From Deltaproteobacteria bacterium (lineage in GTDB: Bacteria > Desulfobacterota > Syntrophobacteria > Syntrophobacterales > Syntrophobacteraceae), in assembly GCA_012517315.1 (NCBI GenBank), contig JAAYVE010000057.1, positions 1 to 64,000 of the forward strand: a stretch of 64,000 nucleotides of DNA. The letters run 5' to 3'. Position 1 is the first letter of the stretch; each line of letters starts with the position of its first letter. The position numbers and the translations under genes are program-made. Below, in pieces: positions 1,141 through 49,423 of this stretch. The notes beneath the pieces are model-generated. The model was not told where the DNA came from and ran no database searches. It saw nothing but the letters and a program-made list of their open reading frames with translations.

Positions 1141-3186
1141 ATGAAAGCTAGCAACCTCGTGATGTTTGCCCTTGGATGTGGCGGGCTCGGCGTCCTCTAC
1201 GCCCTGTTCACCGCTGCATGGGTTTCCAAGCAGCCTGCCGGTTCCGAGAGAATGCAGCAGATCTCGGACGCCATCAAAGAGGGCGCGATGGCCTTCCTGA
1301 ACAGGGAGTACAAGACCGTGGCCATTGTGATGGTGGTCCTCGTCGGGCTTCTCACCTACCTTGGCAAATGGACCGCCATCGGCTTTGTCATTGGCACCGT
1401 GGGTTCTGCTCTGGCTGGCTACATCGGCATGATGGTGTCCGTGAAGGCAAACGTGAGGACCACCGAGGCAGCCAAGAGCGGCCTTCAGACTGCGTTGACC
1501 GTTGCATTCAAGGGTGGCTCCGTGACCGGAATCATGGTGGTGGGGCTGGGATTGCTGGGCATCGCCGGCTACTACATGGTCGTGAAGTCGGTGGCACCTG
1601 TGGATGATGCGTTTCACGCCTTGGTAGGTCTTGGTTTCGGCTGTTCCCTCATGAGCGTTTTCGCCCGTATCGCCGGCGGCATTTACACGAAGGCCGCAGA
1701 CGTCGGCGCCGACCTGGTGGGAAAGGTGGAAGCCGGCATTCCTGAGGACGATCCGCGAAATGCGGCTGTCATCGCCGACAACGTGGGTGACAACGTGGGT
1801 GACTGCGCAGGGATGGCCGCCGACCTCTACGAGACCTACACGGTGACGCTGGTTGCTGCGATGCTGTTGGCCAAGACCGTTTACGGTCCCGACAGCATGT
1901 GGGTGGAATTTCCCCTCCTCATCGGGGGCATCTCCATCATCGCCTCCATCATCGGCACCTATTTCGTCCGCCTCGGCAAGAACCAGTACATCATGGGCGC
2001 CCTGTACAAAGGGCTGGCCGTTTCCGGTATCCTTGCGGCCATCGCCTTCTATTTTGCTTCTGACTGGTTCCTGAAGCTCCCGGGAGTTGAGCAGGCATTC
2101 ACTTCCATGGGTGTTTTCACAACGGCAGTCATCGGATTGGCTTTGACCGGCCTCATCGTCATGATCACCGAGTATTTTACTTCCAAGAGTTTCAACCCGG
2201 TCAAGCACATTGCTGCTGCCAGCCAGACCGGCCATGGTACGAACGTTATCGCGGGACTTGCCGTCAGCATGAAGTCCACCGGGGCCCCTGCCCTGGTCAT
2301 CTGTGGCGCCATTGTCTGGGCCTACGCCCTGGGTGGCGGTTTCAGCGGAAACCCTGGCGGCGGTCTTTTCGCCATCGCCCTCTCCGCCGTCGCCATGCTT
2401 TCCATGACGGGAATCGTGGTGGCCATTGACTCCTATGGTCCCATCACGGACAACGCGGGCGGTATCGCGGAGATGGCTGAACTTCCCGACAGCGTCCGCG
2501 CCATCACCGATCCCCTAGACGCGGTGGGCAACACCACCAAGGCCGTCACCAAGGGATATGCCATCGGCTCCGCCGCTTTGGCCGCTCTGGTTCTTTTTGC
2601 CGAGTACTCCCGGTCCTTCGGCGAGTCCCTCGCATTCGACCTCTCCAATCCATTGGTCCTCATCGGTCTTTTCATCGGTGGTCTTCTTCCTTACTTCTTC
2701 GGTTCTCTTCTTATGGAAGCAGTGGGTAAGGCCGCAGGCGGCGTCGTTGAGGAAGTGCGCCGCCAGTTCCGCGAGATTCCCGGCATCATGGACGGAACGG
2801 CGAGGCCCGAGTATGGCAAATGCGTGGACATCGTGACCAAGAGCGCCATCAAGGAAATGATGATTCCCGCCCTCATCCCTGTTGCAGCTCCTGTCATTGT
2901 CGGCCTTTTGGTAGGGAAGGAAGCTCTGGGCGGCGTACTCATCGGCGCCATCGTCACGGGTCTCTTCCAGGCCATCGCCATGACGAGCGGCGGTGGTGCG
3001 TGGGACAACGCCAAGAAGTTCATTGAAGACGGCATGTACGGCGGCAAGGGTTCCGATGCCCACAAGTCCGCCGTCACCGGTGACACCGTGGGCGATCCGT
3101 ACAAGGACACTGCCGGTCCTGCCATCAACCCCATGATCAAGGTGGTCAACATCGTGGCGCTCCTGATCGTTCCTCTGATCAAATAG
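1141..3186 (+). CDS. hppA: Membrane-bound proton-pumping pyrophosphatase, K+-independent type
   Basis: This is an integral inner-membrane pyrophosphatase that couples PPi hydrolysis to ion pumping. It has 681 residues, the usual length, with many hydrophobic segments. The signature loop (residues 188-231) contains the acidic substrate/Mg-binding motifs [13 protein letters not shown] and [19 protein letters not shown]. The site that separates K+-dependent from K+-independent enzymes reads [10 protein letters not shown], with Lys467 and Thr470. K+-dependent enzymes have Ala and Gly/Ala there, so this should be a K+-independent H+ pump. The start is well supported by AAGGAGGAG just upstream of the ATG. 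It stands alone and is followed by a terminator. In syntrophic or sulfate-reducing bacteria it recovers energy from PPi made by fatty-acid and sulfate activation. Confidence 0.96.
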
Positions 3187-13042: not shown

Positions 13043-14514
<1,472 letters not shown>

Positions 14515-19885: not shown

Positions 19886-20677
19886 CTAACCGCGGAACAG
19901 CCGCTTGAAACGCTCCAGGAAGCCATCCCCGTAGCCGTTGTCGAAGGGAATGCTCTCACCGTTGAGACGCGCCGCAATGCGCTGAAATGCGATACCGGCC
20001 TTGCTCCCCCGATCATGAACCAAAGGCACACCCCGGTTGGTGGAAATCACCACGTCCTCGCTCTCGGGAACCACGCCCAGCAGGGGCACGGAAAGGAGGT
20101 TCACGATATCCTCCGTGGACATCATGTCCCCCTTCTTCACCATGCGGTAATTGAGGCGGTTGACGATGAGGTGAATATCCTTGAGAAGGCTGGCCTCCAG
20201 CAACCCGATGACCCGGTCCGCATCCCGGATGGCCGAGACTTCGGGTGTCGTGACCACAATGGCGATTTCCGCGCCTGCCACGGCGTTCTTGAATCCTCGC
20301 TCAATACCTGCGGGGCAGTCGATGATGACGAAATCAAACTCCTCCGCCAGCTGCCTGCACAACTCCTTCATCTGTTCCGGCTGCACCGCGTCTTTCTCCC
20401 GCGTCTGAGCGGCAGGGATGATGAAGAGGTTGTTCAGCTTTCGATCCCGCAGCATGGCCTGTTCCTTGCGGCATTTTCCCTCGATGATGTCCACGAGATT
20501 GTATACGATTCGGTTTTCGAGCCCCATCACCACGTCGAGGTTTCGCAGGCCGATGTCTGCATCCAGCATCACGACGCTGTGTTTCTTCTTTGCAAGGACA
20601 GTCCCGATGTTGGCGACCGTCGTGGTCTTTCCGACGCCGCCCTTTCCCGAAGTGACTACAATGGTCTTGCCCGCCAT
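19886..20677 (-). CDS. minD: Septum site-determining ATPase MinD
   Basis: This 263-residue ParA-family ATPase has the deviant Walker A GKGGVGKT at residues 11-18, DADIGLRNLD as switch I, and FVIIDCPAGIE as Walker B. The C-terminus FLERFKRLFRG is the amphipathic membrane-targeting helix. It recruits MinC and is released by MinE. It ends 16 bases before minE. Confidence 0.97.
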   Translation of the reverse strand: MAGKTIVVTSGKGGVGKTTTVANIGTVLAKKKHSVVMLDADIGLRNLDVVMGLENRIVYNLVDIIEGKCRKEQAMLRDRKLNNLFIIPAAQTREKDAVQPEQMKELCRQLAEEFDFVIIDCPAGIERGFKNAVAGAEIAIVVTTPEVSAIRDADRVIGLLEASLLKDIHLIVNRLNYRMVKKGDMMSTEDIVNLLSVPLLGVVPESEDVVISTNRGVPLVHDRGSKAGIAFQRIAARLNGESIPFDNGYGDGFLERFKRLFRG

Positions 20678-39725: not shown

Positions 39726-40625
39726 ATGTCGTCCCAACCTGTTTTGGAAACGCGATTCCCAGGTCTCAAACTGATCGCCCGGGGAAAAGTTAGAGACATT
39801 TACGACCTGGAAGATTCGCTGCTCATCGTCGCCACCGACCGAATATCCGCATTCGACGTGGTCATGCCGACCCCCATTCCGGACAAGGGAAAGATCCTCA
39901 CACAGTTATCGAATTTCTGGCTCCATTTCCTGAACGGCGTGATCGAACACCACCTCATCAGCACCGACGTGTCCATGTTTCCCATGAACTGCCGGCATTT
40001 ATCCAGTGAACTGGCCGGACGCACCATGTGGGTGAAAAAGGCCGAGGTCCTTCCCGTGGAATGCATCGTGAGAGGGTATCTCGTCGGATCGGGATGGAAG
40101 GAATACCTGGAAACCGGCAGTGTCTGCGGCATCCCCCTCCCAGCAGGGCTGAGGGAGGCGGAAAGGCTGCCCAGAACCCTCTTTACCCCCTCCACCAAGG
40201 CGGTGCACGGGGCTCACGACCAGAACATCTCCTTCGACGAGATGGCCAGGCTCATCGGTGCCGACTTGTCCCGGAGAATCGAGGAACAAAGTGTCCGCAT
40301 CTATGAAAAGGCGTCCCGCTACGCAGCGGAAAAGGGAATCATCCTCGCGGACACGAAGTTCGAGTTCGGCCTGCGTGAGGGGCGGCTCATCCTGGTGGAC
40401 GAGGTGCTGACCCCTGATTCCAGCCGGTTTTGGCCCGCGGATCGCTACGAACCGGGGAAGAGCCCGGAGAGTTTCGACAAGCAATACCTGAGGGACTACC
40501 TTCTCAAGTCGGGATGGAAGAGCGGCGATCCGCCACCCGAATTACCCGAAGATGTGGTCCTGAACACCCGGGCAAGGTACATGGAAGCGTTGGAGCGACT
40601 GACCGGCAAAGGGCTGGTGGAGTAG
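39726..40625 (+). CDS. purC: Phosphoribosylaminoimidazole-succinocarboxamide synthase
   Basis: PurC joins CAIR with aspartate in purine synthesis. The 299-residue protein is of the longer type: GKVRDIYDLEDSLLIVATDR, RISAFDVVMPTPIPDKGKIL, VECIVRGYLVGSGWKEYLE and LVDEVLTPDSSRFWP are hallmarks. A TTGACA at 39584-39589 may belong to its promoter. Confidence 0.97.
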   Translation: MSSQPVLETRFPGLKLIARGKVRDIYDLEDSLLIVATDRISAFDVVMPTPIPDKGKILTQLSNFWLHFLNGVIEHHLISTDVSMFPMNCRHLSSELAGRTMWVKKAEVLPVECIVRGYLVGSGWKEYLETGSVCGIPLPAGLREAERLPRTLFTPSTKAVHGAHDQNISFDEMARLIGADLSRRIEEQSVRIYEKASRYAAEKGIILADTKFEFGLREGRLILVDEVLTPDSSRFWPADRYEPGKSPESFDKQYLRDYLLKSGWKSGDPPPELPEDVVLNTRARYMEALERLTGKGLVE

Positions 40626-40633
40626 AGTTCATC

Positions 40634-41611
40634 GTGGAAGACCCTTCCTACAGGACCGTCCTCCTCGACCTAATCAACTGGAAGGACGAACGGTTCGCCA
40701 TCACGTCGTATCTTTCGTCTCCACTCCTGGATCAATCCCTGGAACGCTGGGGGATGCTCGCCCCCCCCTGGCTTTGGGACACGGGTGAGGCCGGCTGCAC
40801 CATCGTGGACGGTTTCAAGCGACTGGCCTGGGCCAGGGATCGGCGCTTATCAAGCGCCCGTTGCCTGGTGTTTCCGCAGGAGTCGGATTTCCAACGCCTC
40901 ATGCTGCTACGACTGGAAACCAAACTCTGCAGCCTCGCCCTCAATGTCGCCGAAAAGGCACAGGTTCTTGCGGCGCTGGTGCGATGCGCGCTTTCGGAGA
41001 ACATCCTCCAGGAATATCTGCCCCGCCTGCATTTGCCTGCGCGGAGAGAAGTCATCGGCCCGTGGTGCAGACTGGCCGCCTCCCCATCCCGCCTGCTCCA
41101 ATCCGCCGCTTTAGGGACGGTCTGTGAACGTGCCGCCTTGGTTCTCGCCGACTGGGAAGACGATGCCAGAAACGAAGGCTTGGCCATTTTAGAGCAACTG
41201 CGCTGCAGCGCGAGCATCCAAATGGAGATCCTGGAGCACGTCTCGGAAATCGCACTTCGGGAGGGAAAACCCAAGGTGACGGTACTGACCGATCCCACCG
41301 TGACCGGTCTGCTCCAAGACAGGCACTCCAATCACCGGCAGAAAACTCAAGCCCTTAGGACGGCCCTCACGCGCATGCGCTTTCCAAGGCTTGCCGCACG
41401 AGAGATGGAGTTCCGTGAAACGCTTGCCCGGGCGAACCTCCCCGGTTCCATCCGTCTCCTCCCGCCTCCTGCCTTCGAGGGAGATGGATGGCAGTTGACG
41501 CTTTCGTTCTCCAACCCCCATGAACTGCGCCGTGTTCTCCCGAAAGCGACAGCCTTCGCCTCCTCACCTCTGCTGGAGGAAATCCTCGGGAAGAAGGGTG
41601 GGAGTTCATAA
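40634..41611 (+). CDS. ParB N-terminal-domain-like protein, paired with an SPL-type radical SAM gene
   Basis: This 325-residue protein resembles the ParB/Srx-like N-terminal fold in residues 1-90: MLAPPWLWDTGEAGCTIVDG, FKRLAWARDRRLSSARCLV recall the PP..., IV-G-KR and A-L pattern of ParB-like domains. The rest is helical and not recognised. GTG at 40634 is taken as the start, 9 bases after the purC stop. The next gene starts 6 bases after its end, so the two are an operon. The function is unknown; it is not next to a parA. Confidence 0.65.
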   Translation: MEDPSYRTVLLDLINWKDERFAITSYLSSPLLDQSLERWGMLAPPWLWDTGEAGCTIVDGFKRLAWARDRRLSSARCLVFPQESDFQRLMLLRLETKLCSLALNVAEKAQVLAALVRCALSENILQEYLPRLHLPARREVIGPWCRLAASPSRLLQSAALGTVCERAALVLADWEDDARNEGLAILEQLRCSASIQMEILEHVSEIALREGKPKVTVLTDPTVTGLLQDRHSNHRQKTQALRTALTRMRFPRLAAREMEFRETLARANLPGSIRLLPPPAFEGDGWQLTLSFSNPHELRRVLPKATAFASSPLLEEILGKKGGSS

Positions 41612-41617
41612 AGCCCC

Positions 41618-42706
41618 ATGCGGTGCACTCCTCCCCGTAAAATCATCGTAGAAGCCAGTGTTGCGCAGGACCCGTCTGTGGCCGCTTTGAGAGCGAATCT
41701 CCCCAGCGCTGAATTCGAGGTGGTGGATGAGGTCCACGACACGCTATCCCATGATGCCGGTTTGCTGGAAGTGGTGCGTTTCCGCGGCCGCTTTCTCAGG
41801 CCCTGCCCGGGAACCCGCCGCTATCACTGCTGCGGCTACAGGATTCTGCACTTCGGCACGGGGTGTTCTCTCGGATGCACGTACTGCATCCTCCAAGCCT
41901 ACCTCAACAACCCGAACCTCAGGCTCTTCGGCAACACGGATGACCTCTTCAGGGATCTCCAGCAGGATCTTCTGGCATCCCCCCACACCCTTTTTCGCAT
42001 CGGCACCGGAGAATTCACCGACTCCCTGCTGCTGGACCCGTGGACCGGCTTTTCACGCCGGCTGGTGCCTTTCTTCGCCCGGCAGACCAATGCGATCCTG
42101 GAACTCAAGACCAAAACGGATTTCGTGAAGAACCTGGAAGATCTCCATCACAGGGGGCGAACCATCGTCGCATGGTCCCTCAACGGGGCATCCGTAGTCA
42201 GAGGCGAAGAATACGGAGCCGCGACTCTCCAGCGACGCCTCGAAGCCGCCCGCTCCTGCGCCCAATGGGGGTATCACCTTGCCTTCCACTTCGACCCGAT
42301 GCTCGACTACCCTGGCTGGCGGGAAGAATACGGGGAGGTCCTCAACAGGCTGTTCGACACCGTGCCTTCGGAACGCATCGTCTGGATCAGTCTGGGGGCG
42401 TTTCGCTTCATGCCCCAACTTAAAGCCACCATCCAGGAAAGATACCCCCGGAGCCCCATTCTCTGCGGTGAATTCATCAAGGGCCTCGACGGAAAAATGC
42501 GTTACTTCCGGGACATCCGAGTGGAACTCTACCGGTACATGGTGGAACGGATCCGCAACGTAGACCCGACATTGTGCGTTTACCTCTGCATGGAAGCCAC
42601 GGACATCTGGCAGGAGGCTTTCGGCTTCTCCCCGGAGAGGAAGGGCGGAGTGCCGGCCATGCTCGATCGAGCGGTGAGGGAGCGCATGGGCATCGAGAAA
42701 CCGTGA
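41618..42706 (+). CDS. Spore photoproduct lyase-like radical SAM protein
   Basis: This 362-residue protein has the radical SAM motif CSLGCTYC (CxxxCxxC) after RILHFGTG, as in the SPL family. Downstream it keeps the SPL layout TGEFTDSLLLDPWTGFSRRL, ILELKTKTDFVKNL and YHLAFHFDPMLDYPGW. SPL in sporulating Bacilli repairs thymine spore photoproduct. In a probable non-sporulating host the substrate is unknown, perhaps another DNA lesion. It is co-transcribed with the ParB-like gene. Confidence 0.85.
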   Translation: MRCTPPRKIIVEASVAQDPSVAALRANLPSAEFEVVDEVHDTLSHDAGLLEVVRFRGRFLRPCPGTRRYHCCGYRILHFGTGCSLGCTYCILQAYLNNPNLRLFGNTDDLFRDLQQDLLASPHTLFRIGTGEFTDSLLLDPWTGFSRRLVPFFARQTNAILELKTKTDFVKNLEDLHHRGRTIVAWSLNGASVVRGEEYGAATLQRRLEAARSCAQWGYHLAFHFDPMLDYPGWREEYGEVLNRLFDTVPSERIVWISLGAFRFMPQLKATIQERYPRSPILCGEFIKGLDGKMRYFRDIRVELYRYMVERIRNVDPTLCVYLCMEATDIWQEAFGFSPERKGGVPAMLDRAVRERMGIEKP

Positions 42707-42851
42707 CGCACGAGATCATTTTAGTTTTTATTTCCCCGTGAGATTTGGTATGGAGAAATAACTTTTGGGAATCACAAACCCGTGAGGGGACATGCCGGTT
42801 TTCCCCCTGGCGTCCTGGGGGGAAGGAACCTCACATTCAAGGGAGGAATGG

Positions 42852-44036
42852 ATGGATTTTCAACTCACCGATGAACAGCGCATGATCCAGGAAAGTGTGA
42901 GAAAATGGGCTGTCAACGAACTGGGACCGTTGCAGGAGAAGATCGACGAGGAGGACTGGTTTCCGCCGGATTTTTTCAAGAAGTGTGCTGAGATTGGGAT
43001 ATTGGGCATCACCATGGACGAGAAGTACGGTGGACTGGGGGGGGATGTGCTCATGCAGACGCTGGCTATTGAGGAAATGAGCCGCGTTTGCCCCGCGTTA
43101 GCCATGACGTACGCGGCGCATTCCAATCTGTGCGCCAACAATATCCACAAGAACGCCAACGAAGCCTTGAAGGAGAAGTATTTGCCTCCTCTCATCGCCG
43201 GGGAAAAGATCGGGGCCCTGGCCCTCACCGAACCCAACGCGGGCTCCGATGCCATGAGCCTCAGGACCCGAGCCATGAAAATGGGCGACAAATATATTCT
43301 CAACGGCAGCAAGATGTTCATCACCAACGGGCCTGTAGCGGACACCCTGCTCGTATATGCCAAGACCGACCCTGACAGGGGGGCCAAGGGGATCAGCGCG
43401 TTCATCGTGGAGAAGGACTTCCCCGGCTTTTCGGTTTCCAGGAAGTTGAAGAAGTGCGGCATGAGAGGGTCCCCCACCGCCGAACTCACCTTCGAAGACT
43501 GCGAGGTGCCGGCAGAGAACCTGGTGGGCGAACCGAACCAGGGCGTCCATGTCATGACCAGTGGTCTGGATATCGAGCGGATCGTGCTGGCCGGGGGTTC
43601 TGTGGGCATGGCTCAGCAAGCGCTGGACTATTCCATCCGGTATTCGGTGGAGCGGGAGCAGTTCGGTCAACCGATCGCCGGTTTCCAGATGATCCAGCAA
43701 AAGCTTGCGGACATGTACGCCCGCACGGAGGCGGCCAGGCTTCTCGTTTACCGGGCGGCCGTGGTGGCACAGGACGCTCCGCGGGGCGGCAAGGGAACCG
43801 AACTCACGAAGATGGCCGCCGCCGCCATTCTTTTCGCTGCGGAGACGGCCACCTGGGTGTGTGACCAGGGGATTCAGATTCATGGAGGCTACGGTTACTG
43901 TCTCGAGTTCCCCGTTCAGAAACTCTGGCGTGACGCAAAGCTCTACGAAATCGGCGCGGGCACGAGCGAAATCCGTCGCATGATCATCGCCCGGGAATTG
44001 ACTCGGGACGAGTACGCCCGCAAGGGATATCGTTAG
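42852..44036 (+). CDS. Acyl-CoA dehydrogenase, isovaleryl-CoA dehydrogenase type
   Basis: This 394-residue flavoenzyme oxidises isovaleryl-CoA to 3-methylcrotonyl-CoA. FAD/substrate motifs are ALTEPNAGSDAMSL and NGSKMFITNG. In isovaleryl-CoA dehydrogenases the catalytic Glu sits in GLD-ER-VLAGG; here Glu242 in GLDIERIVLAGG matches. The position used by medium-chain enzymes is Ala (YEIGAGTSEIRR). That supports the isovaleryl type. GGGAGGA precedes the ATG at 42852. It leads the leucine-type operon. Confidence 0.92.
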   Translation: MDFQLTDEQRMIQESVRKWAVNELGPLQEKIDEEDWFPPDFFKKCAEIGILGITMDEKYGGLGGDVLMQTLAIEEMSRVCPALAMTYAAHSNLCANNIHKNANEALKEKYLPPLIAGEKIGALALTEPNAGSDAMSLRTRAMKMGDKYILNGSKMFITNGPVADTLLVYAKTDPDRGAKGISAFIVEKDFPGFSVSRKLKKCGMRGSPTAELTFEDCEVPAENLVGEPNQGVHVMTSGLDIERIVLAGGSVGMAQQALDYSIRYSVEREQFGQPIAGFQMIQQKLADMYARTEAARLLVYRAAVVAQDAPRGGKGTELTKMAAAAILFAAETATWVCDQGIQIHGGYGYCLEFPVQKLWRDAKLYEIGAGTSEIRRMIIARELTRDEYARKGYR

Positions 44037-47880: not shown

Positions 47881-48942
47881 ATGGAATATGGAATCAGGCA
47901 TTACGAGGCGGCACAGAGACTCCTGTGGTTGATGGTTTTCATCATCTCCCTCGGGTTGGCCTACCTGATCAAGGGTTCGGACGCCTACCAACGATCTTAT
48001 CCCGTTCCAACGGTCGGCACCCTAAAAACTGCGGATTTCTGGCTGGAGCTTCAAGGGCTTCAAATTCAGCCGCCGGGTACGACGGGAGCCAGGGCGACAA
48101 CCCAGGGAGGCAGTGATTTCCACCGCACCATTCAGGCTGCACCCGGAATCCTCGCCGGGATCATGATCTATCTGATCCTGCTCAATGCGGTTTTTCTGGG
48201 GCTCAGAGCGGTGTGGCTCCTGGTCCAACTGGTGGGGAAGAGCCTCATTCAGATTCTCCTCAAGACCCATGTGAAAAAGCCCGTAAGACGCCAGACCGCC
48301 GCCCTGGACAGCTTGGCGCGCCATATGGACCGTTTTTTCACGGGCGAAACCCTGGCCAAAGAGGTCAATCGTTTTCCTCTTCCCTTCGTCTTCCACCCTT
48401 TCAAGAGGTTGAAGCTTCTCCTGTCCCAACCTCAAGCCACTCTCTCTGCTGAAGAACTGACGGAGAAGGATAGACGCATCGCCGAAACCGACTGGCAGAT
48501 CCTCTGGCAGTCCTGGCTGCCTTTCAACTGGGTCTTCTGGACACTTCCCGTCCTCGCCCTCTTACAGTCCTCTTCCCTCTTTTATGTGGAACTCCTGCCC
48601 ATCTTTTCGGGAAAGCGGGAACTTGCGGAGTTCTCCACCCCTCTTCTCACGGGACTCATCCCCCTTTTCCAGGTAGTTGTGATCTCTGCGGTGCTTAAGC
48701 TCGCCTCCACACTTCTCAAACGCATCGACGAGCTTTACCTGGCAAACCTGGACGCGCTCTTCTACGACGAGTTCATCGCACGACTCCCGCTTCACAGCGC
48801 AGACACTCTCATTCTGCTCCAGACCATGCAGAGACAGTTCATGGAAATCCAGTCCGCCCTGAGGCGCCTCGAGCGTTCTCTCCCCGTCCATGGAACCGGG
48901 GAGGAGACGGGGAAGGAGAGAAAGAAGCTTGAAAGGGGATGA
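47881..48942 (+). CDS. Membrane protein of unknown function
   Basis: This 353-residue protein has four membrane segments: RLLWLMVFIISLGLAYLI near the N-terminus, LAGIMIYLILLNAVFLGLRA, FNWVFWTLPVLALLQSSSLF and LTGLIPLFQVVVISAVLKLA. The C-terminal 70 residues are charged and helical. I do not recognise the family. The ATG at 47881 has only a weak ribosome site; 47797 is an alternative. The DciA-like gene overlaps or abuts its end. Confidence 0.75.
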   Translation: MEYGIRHYEAAQRLLWLMVFIISLGLAYLIKGSDAYQRSYPVPTVGTLKTADFWLELQGLQIQPPGTTGARATTQGGSDFHRTIQAAPGILAGIMIYLILLNAVFLGLRAVWLLVQLVGKSLIQILLKTHVKKPVRRQTAALDSLARHMDRFFTGETLAKEVNRFPLPFVFHPFKRLKLLLSQPQATLSAEELTEKDRRIAETDWQILWQSWLPFNWVFWTLPVLALLQSSSLFYVELLPIFSGKRELAEFSTPLLTGLIPLFQVVVISAVLKLASTLLKRIDELYLANLDALFYDEFIARLPLHSADTLILLQTMQRQFMEIQSALRRLERSLPVHGTGEETGKERKKLERG

Positions 48943-49423
48943 AGGACCATCGCCACTGGGTTCACTTCTGAAAGGGCTGCTGAGACGGCATCCCTCCTTT
49001 TCCGCAAGCCCCCTCGGCGACTGGCGCGACCTGGTGGGGGAACAGGCGGCCCGCTATTCCCAGCCGGTCTCCCTCAGGAAGGGGGTACTGGTGATCGTGG
49101 CCTACGACTCCATCTGGAAACACCACCTCGAACTCCATAAGGCCGTGCTTCTGGAAAGAATAAACGAGAAGGCGCCCGAGTCCCTGGTTGAAAAGATCGT
49201 CATCCGGGTGGGCGAGGTGCCTGACACCCCTCCCGTTCTCAATCCCCACCAACGGCAGTTGGAAAAACTCTCCCCCGTCCGGTCCCGACGCAGAAGGCAG
49301 CGAAAGGCGGCCATGCGACCTCTGACGGCTGATGAAAAGGATCTGATCCGCAGTCTTCCCGATGCGTCCTTGAGGGCCATTGGGACGCGTCTGCTCCGCC
49401 GCACGGAGCACCCTGAAAGCTAG
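48929..49423 (+). CDS. DciA-like (DUF721) protein
   Basis: This protein of about 164 residues has the DUF721/DciA domain in its first half: LLKGLLRRHPSFSASPLGDW, WRDLVGEQAARYSQPVSLRK and LVIVAYDSIWKHHLELHKAV. DciA loads the replicative helicase DnaB in many bacteria. The basic C-terminal half is of the variable sort. The TTG at 48929 is favoured because AAGGAGAG lies about nine bases upstream; ATG at 48890 has no ribosome site. Confidence 0.82.
   Translation: MKGDEGPSPLGSLLKGLLRRHPSFSASPLGDWRDLVGEQAARYSQPVSLRKGVLVIVAYDSIWKHHLELHKAVLLERINEKAPESLVEKIVIRVGEVPDTPPVLNPHQRQLEKLSPVRSRRRRQRKAAMRPLTADEKDLIRSLPDASLRAIGTRLLRRTEHPES

Follow-up and report, generated by a model that had tools for sequence, protein, structure and literature searches.

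A ParB-like protein co-inherited with a spore photoproduct lyase-fold radical SAM enzyme of altered active site in Desulfobacterota and related bacteria

We analyzed a 64,000-nucleotide stretch of DNA from a Deltaproteobacteria bacterium of the family Syntrophobacteraceae (assembly GCA_012517315.1, contig JAAYVE010000057.1, positions 1 to 64,000; hereafter, the window) and a pair of genes on its + strand. The first gene (40634..41611, GTG start) encodes a ParB-like accessory protein of 325 amino acids (aa), P0001, which was matched to ParB and Noc by family profile and structural model. The second (41618..42706, ATG start) encodes P0002, a 362-aa radical S-adenosylmethionine (SAM) enzyme with the fold of spore photoproduct lyase (SPL; Pfam SPL, 2.7e-31). 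The stop of the first gene and the start of the second are 6 bases apart. These coordinates, the spacing and the motif CSLGCTYC had been given in an earlier note on this DNA and were confirmed here, the motif lying at residues 83-90 of P0002. The two genes co-occurred across the phylum, and the active site of P0002 differed from that of SPL at residues on which the known reaction depends; judging from these residues, P0002 probably catalyses a reaction other than that of SPL. We put at about even the chance that both proteins belong to a single, dedicated radical SAM enzyme of two components, whose substrate is probably a nucleic acid or a nucleotide.

To examine co-occurrence, 296 genomes were sampled evenly from the phylum, a completeness of at least 90 being requested. 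Presence was scored at E < 1e-15 for the P0001-family profile, with which ordinary ParB proteins score roughly 1e-8 to 1e-15, and at E < 1e-60 for the P0002-family profile; both thresholds were set after the tables had been seen. The ParB-like gene was present in 166 genomes and the SPL-like gene in 165, with both in 160, the ParB-like gene only in 6, the SPL-like gene only in 5 and neither in 125 (phi = 0.925, kinship not removed). Changing the thresholds gave similar tables: 149 genomes with both and 6 and 16 with one alone (1e-20 for the ParB-like family), or 162, 4 and 15 (1e-15 and 0.001). The both-or-neither pattern was also seen within nine families (f10, f12, f17, f42, f47, f51, f75, f79 and f80), and 49 of the 55 genomes of the class carried a ParB-like relative. 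As a control, the patchily distributed gene dsrA was above its cut-off in 146 of the 296 genomes and gave phi values of only 0.233 and 0.253 with the two genes; a link to sulfate reduction was dropped on these values. Among the genomes with the ParB-like gene only, three (G082, G189, G271) carried this gene at the edge of a contig, where the sequence that would follow is missing, and two contained an SPL-profile match weaker than the threshold (G149, G168). Ten genomes had a weak SPL-like match (1e-20 to 1e-44) with a partner never above the level of ordinary ParB (G056, G077, G080, G186, G198, G206, G220, G257, G263, G329); these may be other SPL-family proteins.

The positions of both genes were listed for 135 of the 160 genomes, and in 85 of these the genes were adjacent, in the same order and strand, with a gap below 500 bases. 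The same gene order was found in Pseudodesulfovibrio, Desulfovibrio, Desulfonatronospira and two KSB1 loci, pair loci were also present in Desulforhabdus, and in Calditrichota one locus, at a contig end, had the terminal portion of the partner upstream of the SPL gene. The pairwise distances of the two proteins correlated at 0.85 in 27 loci of the class, compared with 0.70 and 0.75 with PurC, the product of the upstream gene (no significance was computed).

Fold assignment of P0002 was consistent between sequence and model. The family profile matched solved SPL in the PDB at 1e-36, and an AlphaFold2 model (pLDDT 93.9, 67 sequences) aligned with SPL in a VIA search with a Z score of 35.6 and a root-mean-square deviation (rmsd) of 2.1 over 317 residues, covering model residues 2-325. 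Both parts of the SPL fold, the partial TIM barrel and the N-terminal domain, were present in the predicted model. The next structural matches were viperin with bound CTP (Z 14.4) and SuiB (14.1), viperin being tied within 1 Z with SuiB, lipoyl synthase and other radical SAM enzymes. Because of this distance (35.6 vs 14.4), P0002 has the SPL fold throughout residues 2-325 and is more than a generic radical SAM barrel. It matched the curated SPL family of NCBIfam, TIGR04070, at 2e-29, but with 102.6 bits against a cut-off of 400, and reached 37 bits with TIGR03886, for which the cut-off is 437.55. A search of mobile elements with P0002 returned seven plasmid and two phage records, all below 60% identity. 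Six of the seven plasmid matches were annotated, all as SPL or SPL family, and no plasmid match spanned 80% of P0002; one unannotated phage record did (84%, 19.9% identity, 1e-6). A mobile-element origin was rejected on these matches.

The active site of P0002 was compared with that of SPL across 67 family sequences, in which 44 columns were invariant. The radical SAM motif CX3CX2C is C83-SLG-C87-TY-C90 (41864..41887, + strand), with C83, C87, Y89 and C90 in 67/67. According to the available part of the text of PMC5368176, SPL repairs dithymine, its allylic radical taking a hydrogen from Cys141, which is refilled via Tyr99 with the assistance of Tyr97; in the Clostridium acetobutylicum enzyme, the hydrogen donor is a different Cys, C74. 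At the donor site (Cys140/141), P0002 has a Glu within GTGE(132)FTDS (42002..42025, + strand), conserved in 67/67, and the Tyr99 site, position 91, was Ile in 60, Val in 6, Phe in 1 and Tyr in none of the 67. P0002 therefore has the CX3CX2C motif of SPL and lacks its Cys141 and Tyr99 (B. subtilis numbering). In a MAFFT alignment, all 13 P0002-family members included had Glu and Ile at these two sites and kept Tyr97 (Y89 in P0002). The five references of this alignment were Bacillus SPL, three SPL-family proteins (from two cyanobacteria and one acidobacterium) and the protein of the unannotated phage record; the four cellular ones keep the donor Cys and Tyr99, and the phage protein keeps Tyr99 and has a Tyr in place of the Cys. 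Since the Cys/Tyr return path is replaced by Glu132 and Ile91, the reaction would not be spore-photoproduct repair by the Bacillus route. The earlier note had also seen no sign of sporulation genes. This held for the one family searched, SASP (PF00269), which had no match in the host genome and, among 14 controls, was positive only in B. subtilis; other sporulation genes were not searched.

P0002 has additional conserved cysteines. The motif CPGTxxYxCC at residues 63-72 (41804..41833, + strand; C63 and C72 in 67/67, C71 in 64/67) was missing from the SPL references compared, and none of C63, C71, C72 and C324 had an aligned Cys in any of the five. C324 belongs to C324-M-E326 in a C-terminal extension (42587..42595, + strand; 67/67), at a strand where the four cellular references terminate with a Thr. 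These three or four extra cysteines might be ligands of a second Fe-S cluster. A hydrogen donor at C72 is also possible, because two HMMER alignments placed this residue opposite a Cys of the 4RH0 chain; MAFFT left the stretch gapped. The 4RH0 chain is a C140A/S76C mutant according to its title, and the aligned Cys is residue 76 by our own count, to which C74 of C. acetobutylicum SPL would correspond.

The earlier note had described the first 90 residues of P0001 as ParB-N-like. As a single sequence, P0001 gave no ParB match in searches of Pfam, NCBIfam and PDB sequences; with a family profile built from 60 sequences, the ParB-like region was recovered, and in the structural model it extended beyond residue 90 to about residue 207. 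This profile matched Thermus thermophilus Spo0J at 1.7e-22 (profile positions 33-191) and Noc at 1.2e-21, and more weakly sulfiredoxin (2e-4), SerK (4.7e-4) and SbnI (6e-4); KorB was not significant by sequence (E 0.25). Pfam ParB_N (E <= 0.001) was matched by 24 of the 60 members and TIGR00180 (E <= 0.01) by 32, P0001 matching neither. Matches of the single P0001 sequence to PrpF, a WHIM1 motif and dCTP deaminase were at E 0.019 or worse, and were rejected as noise because PrpF was not among the families that members match at E <= 0.001.

Structural comparison of the P0001 model (pLDDT 95.3) with VIA and Foldseek agreed with the profile in finding a ParB-like fold. Residues 1-101 (40634..40936, + strand) have the ParB/sulfiredoxin-type nucleotide-binding fold (PadC 6ryk; Z 13.8, rmsd 2.6, 99 aligned), followed by a ParB-like helix-turn-helix domain at residues 101-207 (40934..41254, + strand), matched by VIA to Noc 6y93, whose DNA-binding domain aligned with residues 88-207 (Z 8.1, rmsd 2.6, 113 aligned). 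Over residues 1-207 as a whole, Noc 7nfu aligned only loosely (rmsd 7.3), which suggests that the two domains in the model are arranged differently than in Noc.

The remaining part of P0001, residues 208-325 (41255..41608, + strand), forms a C-terminal domain in which P251 and E282 are invariant. No Pfam family was matched by more than 1 of 58 members in this part, and none by P0001; the best PDB profile match was weak (5.3e-4 over 48 positions). The VIA matches covered residues 1-251 and hardly reached 252-325, so the missing family there is no evidence of a new fold. As regards the C-terminal dimerization domain of ParB, Pfam gave no match in this part of P0001, with residues 252-325 barely reached by the structural search. 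This domain is also encoded alone. In five genomes, four of them of the family f40 (G088, G121, G146, G170) and one of f76 (G219), the open reading frame (ORF) in front of the SPL gene had 175-184 aa and matched the profile from about residue 169 on. A search with the N-terminal half found no dedicated counterpart in these five genomes. The best matches were ParB proteins at 1.7e-21 to 1.6e-18, comparable with the host's own ParB (5.5e-19), and weaker or divergent ParB-like genes were found in G219 (2e-17), G088 (4.1e-15 and two more) and G170 (4.2e-12); one of those ParB-like genes could possibly serve in trans for the missing half. In all four f40 genomes with the C-terminal-only partner, Cys71 of the SPL-fold protein was Ser. 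The motif CPCT in place of CPGT was seen at f40 loci L130-L132, so that the cysteine count is kept, as if one cysteine had moved; L079, L081 and L082 are f40 loci with Ser71, of which L081 was not read for CPCT. Because the ParB half is lost in these genomes and the C-terminal domain stays, it is the latter rather than the ParB fold that seems to accompany the enzyme constantly. This points to a docking part, a role that we infer, in the C-terminal domain and to a regulatory part in the ParB fold.

On the reading of a two-component enzyme, the SPL-fold protein would be the catalytic subunit, binding a [4Fe-4S] cluster and SAM and forming a 5'-deoxyadenosyl radical. The radical would take a hydrogen from the substrate, most likely a nucleic-acid base or a nucleotide, and the hydrogen donor, if there is any, would be another residue than in SPL, e.g., the invariant Cys72. 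The ParB-like protein would be the accessory subunit. Its C-terminal domain would go with the SPL-fold protein, and its ParB/sulfiredoxin fold may bind a nucleotide via the GxxR motif and then regulate the enzyme or position the substrate; it would not act as a CTP-hydrolysing clamp of the ParB type. The more specific proposal, in which an SPL-fold subunit with a rebuilt active site is switched by a ParB nucleotide-switch subunit to carry out a new reaction on nucleic acid, across much of the phylum, in KSB1 and probably in Calditrichota, is tentative, and our own estimate leans against it.

Several observations weigh against the two-component reading. The genes were non-adjacent in 50 of the 135 genomes for which both positions were listed (8 apart on one contig, 42 differing in contig or strand), and a single operon is therefore not obligatory. 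One genome carried the ParB-like partner without an SPL match and without an explanation (G151), and five with the SPL-like gene had ParB-profile matches only at the level of ordinary ParB (G075, G152, G190, G240, G318). In Desulfonatronum, two loci (L057 and L059) gave no match with the partner profiles, even at E 10, over the roughly 4.9 kb that precede the SPL-like gene. Among the ORFs of the loci scanned, none fused the two proteins; a long open frame in front of one SPL gene was tested, and no Pfam domain was found there. Mean identity was 63% for the SPL-fold enzyme and 38% for the ParB-like protein, a variability that would be odd for part of an active site. The models are of single chains, and we infer the physical complex, the docking domain, the binding of cluster, SAM and nucleotide, and the class of substrate. 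Most of the doubt lies with the substrate class, which is suggested by family resemblance.

An unlikely alternative is that the enzyme repairs or modifies DNA and is transported along it by a ParB-like clamp, whose helix-turn-helix would grip DNA and whose N-terminal domain would bind CTP. The SPL and ParB relatives both act on DNA, and a helix-turn-helix fold is present in the P0001 model. ParB accumulates on DNA with CTP (PMC12704722), and Noc has been reported as a DNA-loading CTPase. In P0001 the motifs of such a clamp are degenerate. The phosphate motif GxxR, GERR in canonical ParB, is G60-F-K-R63 (40811..40822, + strand); G60 and R63 were invariant in 60/60 members and Glu occurred at position 61 in 0/60. 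Box III, ENxQR, reads ETKLC in P0001, where its (E/D)-N pair is T-K; Asn stood at position 97 in 28/60 members. The Gln of Box I is Ala in P0001 and was kept in 8/60. We take Glu78 and Glu111 of ParB to lie in the GERR and EN motifs. P0001 thus has the fold and the helix-turn-helix of a ParB of the ParABS type and lacks its GERR and ENxQR motifs with the catalytic Glu. Both glutamates are named as candidate catalytic residues in the available part of PMC8494293.

The charge of the helix-turn-helix region also speaks weakly against the clamp. The net charge was -4 in P0001 and averaged -1.6 in the family (standard deviation 3.1, n = 60), compared with -1, 3, 3, 3, 4 and 5 in six ParB proteins with canonical motifs from six genomes and -3, 4 and -7 in three divergent ParB-like proteins of the same genomes. 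The helix-turn-helix is therefore slightly acidic, which is weak evidence against DNA binding by the ParB-like protein, and the ParB half is missing beside the SPL gene in the five genomes with the C-terminal domain alone. Nucleotide binding stays possible on the sequence, because G60 and R63 are invariant. The earlier note had proposed a repair or modification module in which the ParB-like fold supplies DNA or nucleotide binding. Its ParB fold, SPL-type enzyme and conserved pair stood, and neither of the outcomes that it had named as refuting, a missing ParB-like fold or a pair that is not conserved, occurred; its DNA part was weakly contradicted by the acidic helix-turn-helix and by the ParB half being sometimes missing.

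P0001 also differs from chromosome-partitioning ParB in a further motif and in its surroundings. The motif LGKGL, an N-terminal ParA-binding motif, was not found in the P0001 sequence, and no parA adjoins the gene, as the earlier note had stated. Matches to the ParA/MinD-type ATPase family PF13614 lay in the window at 20207-20668 (3.7e-19) and 13727-13861 (7.1e-8), both on the minus strand and some 20 and 27 kb away from the two genes, the former being the nearest on the contig. The host genome encodes a separate ParB on contig C9 with an adjoining ParA-like gene, beside which the best PF13614 match of the genome is found; this ParB keeps all Box motifs and the ParA motif LGRGL.

The SPL-fold protein could instead act on a free nucleotide or a derived metabolite, which the ParB-like protein would bind or present; we regard this as doubtful. 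Viperin with CTP was the best structural match outside SPL, though tied within 1 Z with other enzymes, and ParB-fold proteins bind CTP, ATP or GTP, as stated in the available part of PMC12704722. The match to SPL is far better (35.6 vs 14.4) and includes the SPL N-terminal domain. A frequent neighbour also seems to favour a nucleotide metabolite: purC, encoding SAICAR synthetase (39726..40625, + strand; Pfam PF01259, 5.4e-76), lies immediately 5' of the ParB-like gene. In the class, purC stood in front of the ParB-like gene in all of the best 30 matches (L002-L031). In other families it did so at 8 of 30 loci and was missing at 22, and seven of the eight fell among the 12 loci at which the SPL gene was non-adjacent. 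The purC link is conserved synteny only, and no tie to purine synthesis is claimed.

It is improbable, in our estimate, that the SPL-fold enzyme modifies its partner, e.g., the C-terminal domain with P251 and E282. Proteins or peptides are substrates of many radical SAM enzymes, and the two residues are invariant in that domain. Within residues 208-325, however, no Cys, Lys, Tyr, His, Ser or Thr was invariant (the best was K237, Lys in 46/60), the partner is otherwise variable, and SPL acts on DNA. That the genes are chance neighbours with separate jobs is very improbable: their frequent non-adjacency would fit it, as would the tie of the ParB-like gene to purC at 7 of 12 loci of this kind and the lack of a detectable partner at L057 and L059 of Desulfonatronum, but non-adjacent genes still co-occur, phi is 0.925, and the both-or-neither pattern is seen within nine families.

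Compared with SPL (SplB; PF20903, TIGR04070; 4FHC, 4RH0), P0002 shares the whole fold and the CX3CX2C motif, and its Y89 is the counterpart of Y97, the first Tyr of the B. subtilis active site. Unlike SPL, it has Glu132 for Cys141 and Ile91 for Tyr99, the extra CPGTxxYxCC motif and CME extension, a co-inherited partner and a host genome without a SASP match. The SPL-family proteins of cyanobacteria and Acidobacteria (TIGR03886) are likewise found outside Bacillus, but the three references keep the Cys and Tyr. SOS-linked operons (PMC3765255) also place an SplB-like radical SAM gene beside accessory genes; in those operons it adjoins ImuB-C, SRAP and further repair genes, and the term ParB is absent from the text of that paper. 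P0001 resembles ParB, Noc and orphan ParB-fold proteins (PMC12704722) in its ParB/Srx fold, helix-turn-helix and GxxR motif. It differs from them in its degenerate GERR and ENxQR motifs, the lack of an adjoining parA, its own C-terminal domain and its SPL-fold partner.

Each half of the pair belongs to a known family. In the open-licence literature searched, no description was found of the pairing, the active-site change or the C-terminal domain. The main text of the ParB-fold survey (PMC12704722) does not mention radical, photoproduct or Desulfo; the parts seen of a Desulfovibrio fitness paper (PMC5764234) gave no phenotype for the two genes, and those of PMC10853773, on ParB-fold DndB, and PMC10782964, with COG1533 among shared genes, gave no link between the two families. 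The homology-based name spore photoproduct lyase is misleading for P0002, as its active site contradicts it. If the two-component reading is true, SPL-type chemistry extends beyond the repair of spore DNA, and the nucleotide-switch fold of ParB has been co-opted by a radical enzyme. Desulfovibrio and Desulforhabdus are genera with cultivable members, and direct testing of the substrate is feasible because the pair occurs in them.

The host genome, G000, consists of 4.43 Mb in 61 contigs, and P0002 itself was its only Pfam SPL match. An acyl-CoA dehydrogenase gene (42792-44036) lies downstream of the P0002 gene. In a survey of neighbours, 110 of 183 neighbour ORFs were scanned against Pfam (E <= 1e-8), and among the first 25 of the 94 families SAICAR synthetase was found 7 times, family-2 glycosyltransferase 5, elongation-factor-G domains 3 and staphylococcal nuclease 2. 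By clustering, the family-2 glycosyltransferase group was present in 8 of the 57 stretches compared. purC alone looked like a lasting neighbour, and no other was strongly recurrent. An elongation-factor-G-like protein group spanned L047, L049, L051, L055, L058, L124, L141 and L142, and a nuclease-like group L136, L142, L144 and L157. Elsewhere in the window, a DciA-like gene (PF05258, 2e-17) was located at 48890-49423 and a membrane H+ pyrophosphatase gene (PF03030, 7.9e-271) at 1141-3186, both on the + strand.

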